Origin: a virus
Length of the DNA stretch: 42,866 bases
Virus record (IMG/VR): IMGVR_UViG_3300046331_000696
Coordinates: 1-42,866 of that record
Direction: 5' to 3' (one strand)
Shown: positions 1,217 through 42,866 of the stretch, one piece after another
Numbering within the stretch: the stretch's first letter is position 1
Layout of the letters: each line of letters starts with the position of its first letter
Made by a program: the position numbers and the translations under genes
Notes under the pieces: generated by a model
Told to the model about the DNA's origin: nothing
Database searches by the model: none
The model's input: only the letters and a program-made list of their open reading frames with translations

Positions 1217-1240
1217 GCCTATTGTTTTAGAGGTTTTAAA

Positions 1241-1280
1241 ATAAAAAGACACTTTTTTTTTAAAAAAAGTGTCTTTTTAT
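1241..1280. terminator. Palindrome ending the initiator operon (copy 1 of a two-copy element)
   Basis: Two perfect 19-base arms (ATAAAAAGACACTTTTTTT and its complement) are separated by two bases. The A-tract on one side and T-tract on the other would allow termination in both directions. The last T residues also form the -33 box of the promoter that follows. A nearly identical element lies at 41325-41368. Confidence 0.7.
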
Positions 1281-1311
1281 TTGCACGTTTTAGAAAGTTG
1301 GCGTATCTTTG
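1280..1311 (+). promoter_or_regulatory. Bacteroidetes-type promoter for the 1338 operon
   Basis: TTTG at 1280-1283, a 20-base spacer, then TATCTTTG at 1304-1311 fit the Bacteroidetes consensus TTTG-N19-21-TAnnTTTG exactly. The start codon at 1338 lies 27 bases downstream. The leader from 1302 to 1333 is identical to the leader of the leftward operon (41274-41305, opposite strand) and contains the small inverted repeat ATTGC...GCAAT, a plausible operator. Confidence 0.8.
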
Positions 1312-1337
1312 TATTGCAAACCAAAGCAATCAAGAAT

Positions 1338-1772
1338 ATGAAAACGCAACTCCAAGAGTTTCCAATTAGCGAACTCAAAAAAGCCAGCACGTATGCTGAG
1401 CTTGACCAATTATCAGGAATGTTAGCCGAGTGTGCTTCTGAATTGGACACCGAACCCACTATCGGGTTTGAACATTTTGTCTCTAAAGAAGATTGTTTCG
1501 CATTTTTTGGCGCGGACGAGTGGAGCGAAAGAATTGGGATGTTATCCAACCCACAACACGCTTACCATTACAGAGACATCCTAATTTATGCATCCCACGA
1601 GGTGCGTGCAGCGTTCCGCCCAGCGTATGAACAGCACATCAAAACCCTTAAAAAATCTTCGTTGGAGCTTGCAAATAGCAGCGATTATTTTCAAGCTGTA
1701 TGGGCAGAAAACAAGCTGCACGAACTTGCAACGCAGGAAAAAGCATACTGCGAGCGTTATTTTGGTAAATAG
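1338..1772 (+). CDS. Hypothetical early protein
   Basis: A 144-residue, mostly helical, acidic protein with no recognised domain. A longer frame starts at 1269, but those extra 23 codons run through the promoter and palindrome, so I take the ATG at 1338. The same spurious extension occurs on the leftward operon because both leaders are copies. It is the first gene after the strong promoter at 1280-1311, so it is probably expressed early and well. Small first-position early proteins are often host-takeover or regulatory factors; nothing in the sequence shows which. Confidence 0.75.
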   Translation: MKTQLQEFPISELKKASTYAELDQLSGMLAECASELDTEPTIGFEHFVSKEDCFAFFGADEWSERIGMLSNPQHAYHYRDILIYASHEVRAAFRPAYEQHIKTLKKSSLELANSSDYFQAVWAENKLHELATQEKAYCERYFGK

Positions 1773-3316: not shown

Positions 3317-4207
3317 ATGCAACCACAGCCCTACACCACACCCGAACTGATGATGCAAATAGAATTAGGAGCAGCCATAGCCATTTCTATTTCGGGCGGG
3401 AAAGATTCCCAAGCTTTGCTCAGTAGCGTTTTGAGCTGGTACAGAGCCAACAACCTAACCAACCAAATATTTGCTATACACGCAGATTTGGGTAGGGCTG
3501 AATGGGCGCAAACGGAGCAGTTTGTACAAGACCTTTGCGAATCCCACCAAATCCAGCTGGTTGTTGTTTCGGCTATGCACAACGGCAAGAAAATAGACCT
3601 TTTGGACAAAATAGAGCTTAGGCAAGAACAGCTCAAAAAAAGCGGACGTTTGGACGTGCCAATCTATCCCAGCATGATGCAAAGATATTGCACATCCGAC
3701 CTAAAAACAGACCCCATAAACGCATACTTCAAGCAGCAGGAATTCCCCAAGATTATCAGCGTTGAGGGTATCCGTTGGGACGAATCTAAAGCCCGTTCCC
3801 AAAAGCTTGTTTTCCAACGGAGGGATGGAATGAAGAGAGGATTAGTTCGCGGGTTCACCTGGAATGCAATAGCCCACTTCAAGGAAGCGGACGTACTGAA
3901 AGCCTGTGGAATGTCTGAAGCCGAATTTAAGCTTGGGCAATGGCAGTACAAAGCCACCGAAACCATTCCCAGCAATTGGAAAATACATCCAGCTTATGCA
4001 ATGGGCAATACTCGGCTAAGTTGCGCAATCTGCGTATTAGCATCCAAGAATGATTTTTTGAATGGCATCAAGCACAACCCACAGCTTGCCGACTGGATAA
4101 GCCAAAAGGAAGATGAAACGGGCTTCACCTACCAGCAGGGAATCAGCATCAAACAGGGACGCGCCCGACTCGCTGCACAGCTTGAACAAACAATGATAAA
4201 TTTTTGA
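3317..4207 (+). CDS. Phosphoadenosine phosphosulfate (PAPS) reductase family protein
   Basis: A 296-residue protein of the adenine-nucleotide alpha-hydrolase (PP-loop) fold. The PP-loop SGGKDS is at residues 26-31. A second conserved segment GIRWDESKAR is at 151-160. Cys125 (RYCTSDLK) and the CAIC pair at 236-239 are placed as in phage PAPS-reductase-like proteins. The family activates or transfers sulfur using ATP or PAPS. Phage members are common but their substrates are mostly unknown; proposals include DNA or RNA sulfur modification and cysteine supply. No dnd-type partner is nearby. The nearest partners are the two adenine methyltransferases downstream, so a nucleic-acid modification role is possible but unproven. 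The gene stands alone between a terminator and a 100-base gap. Confidence 0.85.
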   Translation: MQPQPYTTPELMMQIELGAAIAISISGGKDSQALLSSVLSWYRANNLTNQIFAIHADLGRAEWAQTEQFVQDLCESHQIQLVVVSAMHNGKKIDLLDKIELRQEQLKKSGRLDVPIYPSMMQRYCTSDLKTDPINAYFKQQEFPKIISVEGIRWDESKARSQKLVFQRRDGMKRGLVRGFTWNAIAHFKEADVLKACGMSEAEFKLGQWQYKATETIPSNWKIHPAYAMGNTRLSCAICVLASKNDFLNGIKHNPQLADWISQKEDETGFTYQQGISIKQGRARLAAQLEQTMINF

Positions 4208-7935: not shown

Positions 7936-8844
7936 ATGCAACCAAAACTAATTGGCAGAATTCAAACTCTTGAATTTTATAATGATATTCCCATTGATTC
8001 CACCTCCAACCAAAACCAAAAACACCAATCATACCCAATACATACCATGCAAACCCCACCCGCAAATTTACCCTACCAAGACTTTAGTTATAATGAAAAA
8101 AACATCCTTGACCTTTGGGTTAGCCAAGACCCCGCTAACATCCAATTAGCCAAAACATTTTGCAGAACTATCCTGCGAACTTCCCAAAAAGCCCTATTAG
8201 AAAAAGTAGGGATGTCCAACATACACGAGCGGGGAGAAACGTTTTGCAAATTGGCACCCATGACTACCTTTATCATAAAAGAAGATGATAAGTATCCTTT
8301 TGCTGGTTTTATCCAATGCAGGCTACAAATTGACTTTTTAAGGTTGTGTACAGGCTTTGAGTATTCGGCTGCTCCTGTGGATGGAGATACGTTTTTTTGG
8401 GGCTTGCAGGGATTGCCAATCACAAGATTGACAATGGCTACTAAGGGCGTGAATCGCATGGTAGTAGCGAATGGCTTAAAATCGCTATTTGGGCTTGATA
8501 GATTAGAACATATCTCAAACTACGAGCTTAGGGGCAAAAAAGTATTTGAAGACCTTGCAGAGCTTAAAAAGCTCAAGTTATTGAATGTAATTATTGATGT
8601 GAAAGAGATTTGCTTGTTTGTATCAACCATATCAAATAAGACATTGGAAGGTTTGCGTATAGGCTTTGACTGCACACGAGAAGATGAACTGGCAGAAGTA
8701 ACCGACGAACAAATTACCGAATGTTTGCAGGGGCTCAAGGAAAGGATTCCTAAAACAACGCATTTTAACTTTAATTATTCAGCGAAACATTCTCCATTTT
8801 GCGAAAGATTTGAGCGTATCCTAAACAAGATGCATAACCTATAA
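7936..8844 (+). CDS. Hypothetical protein, possibly leucine-rich C-terminal half
   Basis: A 302-residue protein not recognised as any family. The C-terminal half (about residues 165-295) has alternating leucine-rich strands and helices (DLAELKKLKLLNVIIDVKE) that resemble irregular leucine-rich repeats. The start is uncertain: ATG at 7936 has the favoured 'taacc' context, while ATG at 8047 would remove a polar 37-residue leader rich in Gln and Asn. It is the last gene of the rightward early region and converges on the methyltransferase cassette across a strong terminator. Confidence 0.7.
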   Translation: MQPKLIGRIQTLEFYNDIPIDSTSNQNQKHQSYPIHTMQTPPANLPYQDFSYNEKNILDLWVSQDPANIQLAKTFCRTILRTSQKALLEKVGMSNIHERGETFCKLAPMTTFIIKEDDKYPFAGFIQCRLQIDFLRLCTGFEYSAAPVDGDTFFWGLQGLPITRLTMATKGVNRMVVANGLKSLFGLDRLEHISNYELRGKKVFEDLAELKKLKLLNVIIDVKEICLFVSTISNKTLEGLRIGFDCTREDELAEVTDEQITECLQGLKERIPKTTHFNFNYSAKHSPFCERFERILNKMHNL

Positions 8845-8845
8845 A

Positions 8846-8879
8846 AAAAGCCCCTACAGTTTAAGCTGTAGGGGCTTTT
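8846..8879. terminator. Bidirectional terminator between convergent genes
   Basis: AAAAGCCCCTACAG and CTGTAGGGGCTTTT form a perfect 14-bp arm pair with a six-base loop. The A- and T-tracts make it functional on both strands. It separates the rightward gene ending at 8844 from the leftward gene ending at 8884. Confidence 0.9.
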
Positions 8880-8883
8880 GCGT

Positions 8884-9588
8884 CTAAAACAGGTTGCCCT
8901 GCACAAAATCGTAATTGGTAGGCAGGTTTGACCAAATCGCTTCTGTATTGTACAGGTTGGAAGCTCCTTTGCGGGTTACCATTGGCTTAAAGGGAAGTCA
9001 TTCCGCCCTGGTGTTCTCGCAAACAATCGTTTGACCTTTCCGAGACCTGCACCAGTCCGCCAATTGCTTAAAATCCAGCTTCTTTGAGCTTTTCTTGTAG
9101 GCAGTACCGCCGAAAACATAAGGCGGGTCAATGTACCAGCTAGCCTCTTGGTTCGGAATATCCTCATAAGAACCCAGCCGAACCTCCCAATGCCTAATTT
9201 TGTGCAAATTGTCCGCAATCCGTTTGTAGGTGTTGGCACGCCTATTCCCTACAAAGGCACCGAATGGGCTCACTGTTTTGCGCGGTTCAGCTGTACCGGC
9301 TCCAGCAATAAACCCCAAGAACAAAACCTCGTCCTCCGAAAGCCCCAAGGTAGTCAAATCTAATCCCCTTGTGAGCTTAGGTAGTCCAAGTATATCCTTG
9401 GGGCTGCATTGTTGTAAAAACTTTCAGATGCGAACCACCGCCTCATATTTATCCACCAGGAGAACATCCCTATCAAAATATTTAAGGGCGTACCGAGCCG
9501 AACCTGCGAAAGGCTCTATGATTTTGGAAAAAATCGGCTTGGGGTACATATGAATTATCTTAGATTTAGAGCCGTAATAGTTGAACAT
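8884..9588 (-). CDS. Dam-like adenine DNA methyltransferase with two in-frame TGA codons
   Basis: Reading leftward from ATG at 9588 to TAG at 8886-8884 gives 235 codons with no frameshift, interrupted only by TGA at codons 55 (9426-9424) and 197 (9000-8998). The protein has the Dam family order: FNYYGSKSKI at the N-terminus, motif I IIEPFAGSA near residues 23-31, and catalytic motif IV YIDPPY. Both TGA codons sit where the family normally has Trp: VVRI-x-KFLQQ and ENTRAE-x-LPF. Four other Trp codons are TGG. Conventional annotation would see only fragments, such as 8998-9357. It follows the ParB-methyltransferase fusion by 43 bases. Either UGA is decoded as Trp here, or the gene is a pseudogene with an oddly selective set of mutations. 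Confidence 0.75.
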
Positions 9589-9631
9589 TTGCGCAAAGAC
9601 TTACCAGGGACTGCCAAGCCCTGTTTTTTTA

Positions 9632-10837
9632 TCATGTGGTATCCCAAACTACACCGTTCTTTTTGACTTCCATTTCGGGGTTCAGCCGTTTCAGTCGCTG
9701 CACAATCACTTGGCAGTACTTTGGCTCCAACTCTACACCATAGCAGACGCGCCCTGTTTGTTCGGCGGCTACCATAGTGCTCCCACTTCCCAAAAACGGG
9801 TCTAAGACCAAATCCCCAATATCTGAGGAATTCCCTATGAGATACTCAAGCATCTCTACAGGTTTCATTGTGGGGTGGTCGGGGTTGCGCTGTGGCTTGT
9901 CAAAATTTAAAACGGTGGTTTGTTTTCGGTCTGCTCTTCATTTGTGAGCCGACCCCTCTATTCACCCATAGAGAATTGGCTCGTGCTGCCATTGATAATC
10001 TTGCCTACCTAAAACAAAATGTTGTTTGACCCAAATTAGGCACTGTTTTAGGCTAATTCCTGCACGCTTCATTTCGTTCCTAAACGTGTGCCCTGCTACA
10101 TCCGAATGGAAGACGTACCAAGCTGCACCCTTTTTTGTTTGGGCTGCTGTAAGCGTGTAAAATTGTTGGAGGAATTGTTCAAAAGCCTCATCTGACAAAT
10201 TGTCGTTTGCGATTTTGGCACGAGTTTTCGCAACTCCTTGATAATTCACGTTGTAAGGTGGGTCTGTAACAATGATGTCGGACTTCTTACCATCCATGAG
10301 CATCTCTAAGATGCCAGGCTGCGTACATGAACCACAAACTAACCTATGCGTTCCAATCTCCAGCAAGTCCCCGACCACAATATCCGTGTGGATTTCGTTT
10401 GATTTGGGAATTACAAAATCGTCGTCGCTTTCGGCTGCCTGTTTGGATTTGGATTTATCCTCCAGCCAATCCCCGCCAACGGCAAAATCAAGGCTTCAGT
10501 CGGATAATAATTCTTTGTCCCAATGTTCGTCCAAGACCGCAAAGTCCCATTCACCATAAGAGACATTATCTAAAATTTGCAGCCGTTTTTTTTCCTCTTC
10601 TGTAAGTGTGGAGGCTGCTTTTACCCAATTGTCGGGAATTTCTTTGTATCCCAACTTTTGGAGTGCTAAAAATCGCTGGTTACCAATGATAACCTCTTTT
10701 GTTCAATCATCATATACTAATCCTCGGTACTCCATAGCCTTGGGGAACTCCTTTAGGCTTTTCATGAGCTTATCCATGTTAGCACTTTTGATAAAACGCG
10801 GGTTTTTGGCACTCGGTTTTAAATCACTTAACAACAT
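9632..10837 (-). CDS. ParB-domain/DNA adenine methyltransferase fusion with four in-frame TGA codons
   Basis: From ATG at 10837 the leftward frame runs 402 codons without an indel, interrupted by TGA at codons 45, 114, 292 and 300 (10705-10703, 10498-10496, 9964-9962, 9940-9938). Residues 1-115 are a ParB-like N-terminal domain (LKPSAKNPRFI, IIGNQRFLAL). The rest is a beta-class methyltransferase with VTDPPYNVNY near residue 175 and C-terminal LDPFLGSGSTMVAAEQ. The family pattern predicts Trp at ELLSD-x-SLDF, ILYG-x-IEGSAHK and AHK-x-RADRKQTT. The first site is less conserved. Eight Trp codons remain TGG. The frame ends with TGA immediately followed by TAA, so reading the last TGA as Trp would add one residue. 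Such fusions are common in phages of Bacteroidota. Confidence 0.75.
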
Positions 10838-41295: not shown

Positions 41296-41327
41296 CAAAG
41301 ATACGTCGACTTTTTAGAATCTCCAAA
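41296..41327 (-). promoter_or_regulatory. Leftward early promoter
   Basis: On the minus strand TTTG (41327-41324), 20 bases, TATCTTTG (41303-41296): an exact Bacteroidetes match with the same spacing as the promoter at 1280. The next 32 bases of leader duplicate 1302-1333, so both operons probably answer to the same regulator. Confidence 0.85.
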
Positions 41328-41368
41328 TAAAAAGACACTTTTTTTTAAAAAAAAGTGTCTTTTTATTT
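41325..41368. repeat. Perfect 44-bp palindrome between divergent promoters (copy 2)
   Basis: Two 22-base arms meet without a spacer, with the core AAGACACTTTTTTTT and its complement. Each end (ATTT followed by G) provides the -33 TTTG of the promoter pointing outward. It can act as a two-way terminator and as a shared regulator site. Copy 1 is at 1241-1280. Confidence 0.85.
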
Positions 41369-41397
41369 GCACGTGTTAAAATAATGGTCGTACTTTG
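41366..41397 (+). promoter_or_regulatory. Rightward early promoter for the replication initiator
   Basis: TTTG at 41366-41369, 20 bases, then GTACTTTG at 41390-41397: a variant of the Bacteroidetes -7 box. The initiator ATG is 20 bases downstream. The leader shares TTTGTA and CAAACCA with the other two early leaders. Confidence 0.7.
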
Positions 41398-41417: not shown

Positions 41418-42866
41418 ATGAAAACGAACATCCAAGACCTTATACTCAACAACACCAGCTATATGTTACTGCCTTTCCCGCTCATTCAAAAGGTTGGGTT
41501 CAAAGCTGCCTGTTTTTACGCTTTTTTGGTGAATAAATCCAGCTTTTATTCAGGTGCTTGGTTTTACTGTAAATCTGAAGAAATAGAGGCGGGTATTGGA
41601 ATGGGGCGTACCATGCAAGGCAATTGCATAGAAACCTTAAAGGAAACAGGTATATTATTGTGTGAATTGCGCAAAGATTCCGAGCGGGGTTTTTTGAAGT
41701 ATTTCAACGTTTGCGATTGCGCGGATGCCTTAGCAAAGGTTATCTCGGAAAATAGCGCAATAGATATAAAAAATAATAATTTGGGAGTGCACAAAATCAA
41801 CAGTCGCGACTGCACAAAATCAACAGTCGGGACTGCACAAAATCAACAGTCGGGAGTGTATGAAATCAACAGTCGGGAGTGCTCAAAACATACAGTCGGG
41901 AGTGCTCAAAACATACAGTCGTTTATTAAAGAAGAATATACTAATAAACAAGAAGTAAATAAAGAAACCAATAAAGAAGAAGTAAACCCTTCTTTGTCGG
42001 GGGCGGGCTTTAAAAAATTAGTTTTGAACTCCGATTTGGTAAATTCTTGGATAGCAGAAACAGGGGCAAAGGTTTCGGAGTCGCTGGGGCTTTTATTGAA
42101 TGAATATTTTATTAAAAAAAATACCAAAAAAGATATTAGCCTGAAAAAACAAGAATTACAAAATTTTCTTAAAATTGCGCAAAACAAAGAAATTCCCGAT
42201 GCTGCCCTTGTTAGCTATATGCACACGGCTTTGGTTGGCAAATCGGGTAAGGCTTGGGTCTGCCTTGCTTGGTATGAGGAAACAATAACAAAAATTCTAA
42301 AAGGGCTACAGCCGACCACCCAAGCAGAGAATATTTCTAATAGCCTTTTGGATAACCCCAATGCTATGCAAATTTTTTCAACCTTTGCGACTGCGTTCAC
42401 TTGGGATATTCCAACAAATTCCAACGATACTGAGAAAGAGGTACGCTTGAGAAACTGCTTATCGGGGAAAGGGATGATGCAGCATGAGGAAACCCGCGCA
42501 AAGGAATTTTTTAATATGCTCCCCGTTGGTACCGACCTTGCCAAGCTGGTAGGCATTTTGACCAACCTAATGAAACACTTGGGTGTTGAGTACCAAATCA
42601 TCAAACAAAATGTGGAAGGACAAAAAATGTACAACAAGCCAAGAACCGACTATACAGCGAGCACCGCCCGTGCAGGCTTTTTTGCAAAATGGGTAACTGG
42701 TGGGCAATATGTGAAAAACGAAAACCGCGCCCCAATTTGGAAAAACGAACCATCCACCAACGCCTACTATTTTCCGCCCAGCTTAAAATCTTTTTTCTTA
42801 GAATTGCGTAAAAAACACACAGGGCTGAACGATGCTATTTTTGCGGAATTTTGGGCGGTGGTGTTC
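41418..42866 (+). CDS. Replication initiator protein, winged-helix type, with internal origin (continues at base 1)
   Basis: The gene is open from ATG at 41418 to the window end and continues at 1-509, giving 595 residues in all. Residues 1-110 look like an N-terminal winged helix of phage replication proteins: a helix-rich region with KVGFKAACFYAFLV, then SEEIEAGIGMGRTMQGNCIE (recognition helix type) and a beta hairpin. Residues about 123-168 are encoded by six 23-bp iterons and give two copies of a 23-residue repeat. A Lys/Glu-rich linker follows. This is the layout of lambda O, where the initiator binds iterons within its own gene. No helicase, primase or polymerase gene is in the window, so host enzymes must be recruited. 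Confidence 0.8.
   Translation, partial: MKTNIQDLILNNTSYMLLPFPLIQKVGFKAACFYAFLVNKSSFYSGAWFYCKSEEIEAGIGMGRTMQGNCIETLKETGILLCELRKDSERGFLKYFNVCDCADALAKVISENSAIDIKNNNLGVHKINSRDCTKSTVGTAQNQQSGVYEINSRECSKHTVGSAQNIQSFIKEEYTNKQEVNKETNKEEVNPSLSGAGFKKLVLNSDLVNSWIAETGAKVSESLGLLLNEYFIKKNTKKDISLKKQELQNFLKIAQNKEIPDAALVSYMHTALVGKSGKAWVCLAWYEETITKILKGLQPTTQAENISNSLLDNPNAMQIFSTFATAFTWDIPTNSNDTEKEVRLRNCLSGKGMMQHEETRAKEFFNMLPVGTDLAKLVGILTNLMKHLGVEYQIIKQNVEGQKMYNKPRTDYTASTARAGFFAKWVTGGQYVKNENRAPIWKNEPSTNAYYFPPSLKSFFLELRKKHTGLNDAIFAEFWAVVF
41785..41922 (+). repeat. Six 23-bp iterons inside the initiator gene
   Basis: Copies begin at 41785, 41808, 41831, 41854, 41877 and 41900, each exactly 23 bases. The shared core is GA(G/C)TG...CAGTCG. 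Copies 2 and 3 hold the inverted ends CGACTG and CAGTCG around 11 bases. Copies 5 and 6 share the variant CTCAAAACATA. The period is not a multiple of three, so three copies span 23 codons and the protein repeats at that period. Confidence 0.9.
41785..41990. other. Probable replication origin (iterons plus AT-rich segment)
   Basis: The iterons are followed at 41921-41985 by a segment made almost only of A, T and G on this strand (TTTATTAAAGAAGAATATAC and onwards). This would serve as an unwinding region. Iterons followed by an AT-rich stretch within the initiator gene is the layout of the lambda origin. Confidence 0.75.
42697..42866. repeat. Right copy of the terminal repeat
   Basis: It matches bases 1-170 with four differences and closes the genome circle. 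See the left copy for positions. Confidence 0.85.

Follow-up and report, generated by a model that had tools for sequence, protein, structure and literature searches.

Six tandem 23-bp iterons inside a phage initiator gene as a probable lambda-like replication origin

Why should a gene resembling those of phage replication initiators carry in its interior six copies of a 23-bp sequence, abutting one another without a gap? The question arises from a viral record, IMG/VR IMGVR_UViG_3300046331_000696, analysed here over its whole stretch of 42,866 nucleotides (the window), and from the array of repeats at its positions 41784-41921, for which a preliminary description made from the nucleotide letters had proposed a lambda-like origin of replication. 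We put the probability at roughly 0.85 that this array serves as the replication origin of a circularising tailed phage of ~42.7 kb, lying inside the gene of the phage's own initiator. Judged from sequence and by analogy, an in-gene iteron origin, lambda-like in design, would be the best explanation of the locus.

The array and its counterpart in a relative

Tandem Repeats Finder (TRF) delimited a repeat on the plus strand at 41783-41921, with a period of 23, 6.0 copies and 88% matches; units set in register begin at 41784, 41807, 41830, 41853, 41876 and 41899, each comprising imperfect dyad ends and an 11-bp A-rich middle. Identity at a lag of 23 reaches 101 of 115 positions, against 59 at best, over lags 5-60, when the codons of the gene were shuffled 500 times. 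The six gapless in-gene repeats of the preliminary description are thus confirmed by repeat finding, register and codon shuffling. Inverted ends, CGACTG and CAGTCG, had been noted in copies 2 and 3; they are perfect in copy 2 only: copy 3 pairs at five of six positions and the other four copies at four of six. Directly downstream, at 41922-41991 on the same strand, the A+T-rich stretch noted earlier is indeed present, as 70 nt of 79% A+T and 69% purine (an A+T content reached in 0.5% of 70-nt windows), and represents a proposed unwinding element.

The only close relative found, at one locus among viral contigs, is IMGVR_UViG_3300037882_004961 (hereafter G001); initiator relatives were absent from genome contigs, tblastn gave no match in phages, and there was a single plasmid hit, at E 0.9. 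G001, the end of which repeats its own start, is collinear with the window wherever DNA similarity is detected (little of it in the 12-30 kb interval); the two initiators share 61% identity over 483 window residues. A DNA skeleton pattern retrieved, apart from G001, a locus (L085) that proved to be a chance match in a structural gene. The G001 array was scored by TRF at period 23, 5.6 copies and 89%, and comprises six in-register 23-bp units; exactly as in the window, 366 nt of the gene precede them, and they differ from the window units in sequence. The comparison of relatives that had been suggested therefore finds number, period and place retained and the unit sequence changed all along the array. 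The stretch after the G001 array is likewise A+T-rich (76%), and TTTATTAAAGAAGAA at its start is identical in both phages.

The two arrays differ at 49 of 138 positions, distributed over the three codon positions as 16, 16 and 17 of 46 each, whereas the first 366 nt of the gene show 17, 16 and 46 differences of 122 each (contrast, p 1.6e-5). A period of 23, not being a multiple of three, shifts the reading frame at each copy, and the differences cluster by position within the unit to a degree that none of 20000 permutations reached. Because the differences ignore codon position and follow position in the unit, we consider the array to be kept as DNA; at the level of sequence comparison, selection on it as DNA, not as protein, is shown.

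The initiator gene and its O-like relatives

The array lies within an open frame on the plus strand that begins at 41418, has 483 codons up to the end of the window at 42866 and continues to 509 when the ends are joined: bases 1-170 match 42697-42866 at all but 4 positions, so that the record closes as a circle of ~42,696 bp, bearing out the ~42.7-kb circle assumed beforehand. The complete product has 595 residues. It matches PHROG 9773, "replication initiation O-like", at E 4.9e-4 in a direct search; hhalign relates residues 5-84 to the initiator of Lactobacillus phage Ld17 (E 8.4e-6); and a profile built from nine O-like N-terminal domains, one row of which (c5) is unclean in that ORF38 was taken and the N-terminal match lies in ORF37, retrieved from 722 frames the initiators of the window (2.7e-9) and G001 (1.2e-9), the next score being 0.87. 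From alignment to O-like initiators, a DNA-binding domain is predicted at 41418-41777 (plus strand), with a predicted recognition helix at about residues 62-77. The gene had been described as encoding a winged-helix initiator; its kinship with O-like initiators stands, and a winged-helix fold is suggested by homology to annotated initiators together with the order helix-helix-helix-strand-strand, seen only in a structure model with a pLDDT (predicted local distance difference test) score of 34. At 595 residues in the window and 589 in G001 the initiators exceed the 240-410 codons of 25 named O-like genes, one of which (sal3) is cut at the end of its locus. Residues ~190-595 (41988-42866 and 1-509, ~400 residues) gave no significant match to a Pfam, PHROG or PDB family.

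O-like initiators of phages of Staphylococcus, Vibrio, Acinetobacter, Fusobacterium, Lactobacillus and other hosts (PHROG 9773, 391 and 428) share the homologous N-terminal domain, and most of their genes, like that of the window, bear an in-gene array of 22-24 bp just after it; they are shorter, their arrays are less regular and a loader or helicase usually follows them. The arrays were surveyed by finding, for each gene, which repeat period from 15 to 30 scored best, with significance taken from 200 shuffles. Among 27 usable O-like genes the best period was 23 in 18, or in 20 of 29 when Kp4882 and IKEMa6 are counted (period 23 in the right frame; neither enters the dereplicated counts that follow). 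With 107 viral loci added, dereplication at 90% gave a set of 62 genes, with period 23 in 37, 22 in eight, 24 in eight and 15 in nine; that is, 22-24 in 53, and in 45 of these (22 or 23) a period not divisible by three. For 58 of the 62, at most two of 200 shuffles were as good. A control of 59 dereplicated neighbouring ORFs yielded two significant periods (15 and 17) and none at 22-24. When the N-terminal domains are clustered at 50% identity, seven of the 15 clusters have 23 as their majority period, two have 22, two 24 and four 15. The arrays of the window and G001 are the most regular of the 62, and unit sequences vary widely among the genes surveyed.

The proposed origin and its rivals

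In the mechanism we propose, the N-terminal domain of the initiator would bind the six iterons, probably as one dimer per iteron; the bound array would strain the DNA until, as in lambda, the adjoining A+T-rich stretch opens; and the replisome proteins recruited to it would be those of the host, by analogy with lambda (PMC5043065), no phage helicase or loader being recognised. The profile scan of 40 ORFs against PHROGs assigned no helicase, primase or polymerase, and gave a weak cross-match of a methyltransferase gene to a profile named helicase (E 0.0067) as its sole hit of that kind. Neither the window genome nor G001 matched the DnaB_C and IstB profiles, both of which were detected in 14 of 14 controls, and the two ORFs downstream of the initiator (518-976 and 989-1216) matched no PHROG and no IstB/DnaC profile. 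The earlier claim that no replication enzymes are encoded is in this way supported, not proved; the phage may possess a very divergent helicase loader.

The arrangement has close parallels. In lambda (ori-lambda in gene O), P22 (gene 18), phage L (gene 18) and the O genes of Stx phages, tandem iterons lie in the middle of the initiator gene, and the lambda array, too, begins ~350-366 nt into the gene and is followed by an A+T-rich stretch. Lambda O has four annotated iterons (nt 349-433) with starts 20, 24 and 23 apart, an uneven spacing compared with the exact 23 of the window. The preliminary likening to lambda O with fewer iterons is sound as to design and to the four lambda copies; six is not an unusual number, having been reported for Stx phages (PMC7466680). 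The window initiator is twice as long as lambda O, with no P-like gene recognised beside it, and its demonstrable homology is to the O-like initiators of other phages; "lambda-like" here describes repeats in an initiator-like gene beside an A+T-rich stretch. Plasmids of the RepA/RepE/TrfA type similarly place an array of initiator sites beside an A+T-rich element, with initiators of Rep families that the window protein does not match.

Several observations weigh against an in-gene origin of this type. Lambda O could not be aligned to the window initiator (hhalign probability 0.1), which has no Pfam match above cut-off, no Rep family domain and no match in the PDB, and the structure models of which are of low confidence (pLDDT 34 and 36). 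No helicase loader is recognised, unlike the 17 of 25 annotated O-like records viewed in which a loader, P or helicase follows the O-like gene (the others show one "ATP-binding protein", six "hypothetical" and one neighbour not seen). The dyad symmetry of the unit consensus is not above chance (4855 of 5000 shuffles as good): arms pair at 27 of 36 positions in the window and 26 of 36 in G001, which shuffled consensus units equal, and they lack clear covariation between the two phages (4.5 and 4.5 of six within each, 3.5 and 4.5 when crossed), so that a dyad in the phage's own array is only suggestive. Cumulative GC skew has a maximum, not a minimum, near 42.28 kb, opposite in sign to the usual origin. 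Two Flavobacterium phages, Fpv11 and FPSV-S2, possess the N-terminal domain without a 22-24-bp array, and only one close relative (G001) is known. Skew had been offered as a check, with a switch expected near 41.9 kb; AT and keto skew do switch near 41.7 kb, the very point at which the genes change direction; skew does not discriminate and is uninformative here.

The strongest competitor, which we nevertheless regard as unlikely, is that the initiator, or some other protein of the phage, binds the array to a different end: autoregulation, partition, packaging or recombination. Iteron arrays of plasmids serve copy control and partition as well as initiation, and a circular phage could exist as a plasmid in lysogeny. 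The unit core, searched with up to three mismatches, matches no site in the window outside the array, the promoter region included; no partition gene was assigned among the 40 ORFs scanned; the A+T-rich stretch adjoins the array; and the equivalent arrangement in lambda is an origin (PMC5043065).

Much less probable is a feature of the protein, a disordered linker of tandem peptide repeats in which the DNA plays no role. The array does lie between the N-terminal domain and the remainder, peptides of units 1-3 and 4-6 are identical at 16 of 23 positions, and Fpv11, FPSV-S2, Ld3 and Ld25A carry an in-frame period of 15 after the N-terminal domain; against this stand the rotation of the frame at each copy, the even spread of G001 mismatches over codon positions and their clustering by unit position, and the 45 O-like genes with arrays out of phase with codons. 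Just as improbable is a recent tandem duplication without function, for although such arrays arise by slippage and two window units are identical, the units otherwise differ (mean identity 0.83 in the window, 0.82 in G001), count, period and place persist in a relative whose protein is 61% identical, similar arrays occur in 53 of 62 family genes, and no close relative keeping the gene without the array was found.

Pitch, half-sites and neighbouring features

If an origin, the array would follow a known design with unusual regularity, and would be a clean model in having six equal sites, a single spacing and a relative with an equal frame and a different unit. The survey in turn suggests a testable rule, a pitch near 23 bp across phages of several host phyla that is not seen in neighbouring genes; it turns an anecdote into something that can be tested, offers a way of spotting phage origins from sequence alone and allows one to ask how iteron spacing drives strand opening, a step still called open in a 2016 review (PMC5043065). 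The preliminary description had placed the iterons along one face of the helix. At 10.5 bp per turn, however, 23 bp make 2.19 turns, an offset of +69 degrees per site, and the sites therefore do not share a face of relaxed B-DNA; at this pitch, only underwinding of the array to 11.5 bp per turn would bring the sites onto one protein face, in which case the untwisting by which the A+T-rich element is opened may be stored in the array itself. The initiator, ~300 residues longer than usual, may replace the missing loader. Taken together, we offer only tentatively, as a proposal more doubtful than probable, that pitch rather than sequence is conserved in 23-bp in-gene iterons across hosts, while unit sequence, copies, half-sites and recognition helix turn over in concert, with the array possibly storing untwisting and the long initiator possibly standing in for a loader. 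The two Flavobacterium phages, the named Bacteroidota phages of the survey, are exceptions to such a pitch; lambda O alone is not significant (18 of 200 shuffles); and 15 of the 25 named genes, as well as Kp4882 and IKEMa6, were picked when two genes had already shown period 23, while two viral-locus queries came from genes with strong 23-bp arrays and one of these searches kept 80 of 353 candidates.

Staphylococcal phages supplied 18 arrays from 30 genes, of which 17 distinct ones entered the position-pair counts and a divergent one (TPWB-09) was left out. Complementary bases occupy unit positions 7 and 21 in 60 of 68 cells (C-G in 30, G-C in 30; next best pair, 29), with exceptions mostly in fourth copies. 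Nine proteins of C-type arrays have E72 and R76 and eight of G-type arrays K72 and M76, residues that fall in the stretch aligned with the predicted recognition helix, so that both half-sites switch together with residues of the predicted helix. Descent is a confounder for this switch, because an equally clean split between the two types is seen at 13 of 43 variable columns. One locus (L151) has G-type contact bases and a spacer otherwise C-type-like, in a gene nearest the G-type genes. That iterons within O-type genes differ between phages, among them P22, L and lambda (PMC8022706), and that six iterons occur (PMC7466680), is already in print; a statement that such iterons share a 23-bp pitch, or that their half-sites switch in concert, was not found in the open-access literature covered, which leaves most subscription journals outside, and PMC7581432 deals with a different system.

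Directly upstream of the initiator gene, between divergent genes, a long inverted repeat at 41312-41381 (unstranded; 35-nt arms, 86% complementary) is likely a promoter or control region. Judging by cross-matches with G001, similar intergenic DNA lies again near 1.25 kb of the window (1236-1357) and at a number of sites in G001; it may be a divergent promoter or operator present in more than one copy.

The host is probably a member of the Bacteroidota, as had been presumed, since the best terminase matches are to Bacteroides phages (~34% identity); terminase relatives proved too remote to have the initiator as well. In IMG/VR the record is listed as linear; three of the four mismatches in its end overlap are clustered (118, 119 and 124), and the assembly may join two variants. 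A gene at 3317-4207 resembles phosphoadenosine phosphosulfate reductase (PHROG 424, E 1.5e-29) and is a candidate auxiliary or DNA-modification gene. On the minus strand, at 8844-10600, a DNA-methyltransferase-like frame seems broken into pieces, in DNA that is 80-88% identical to G001, higher than most of the genome.
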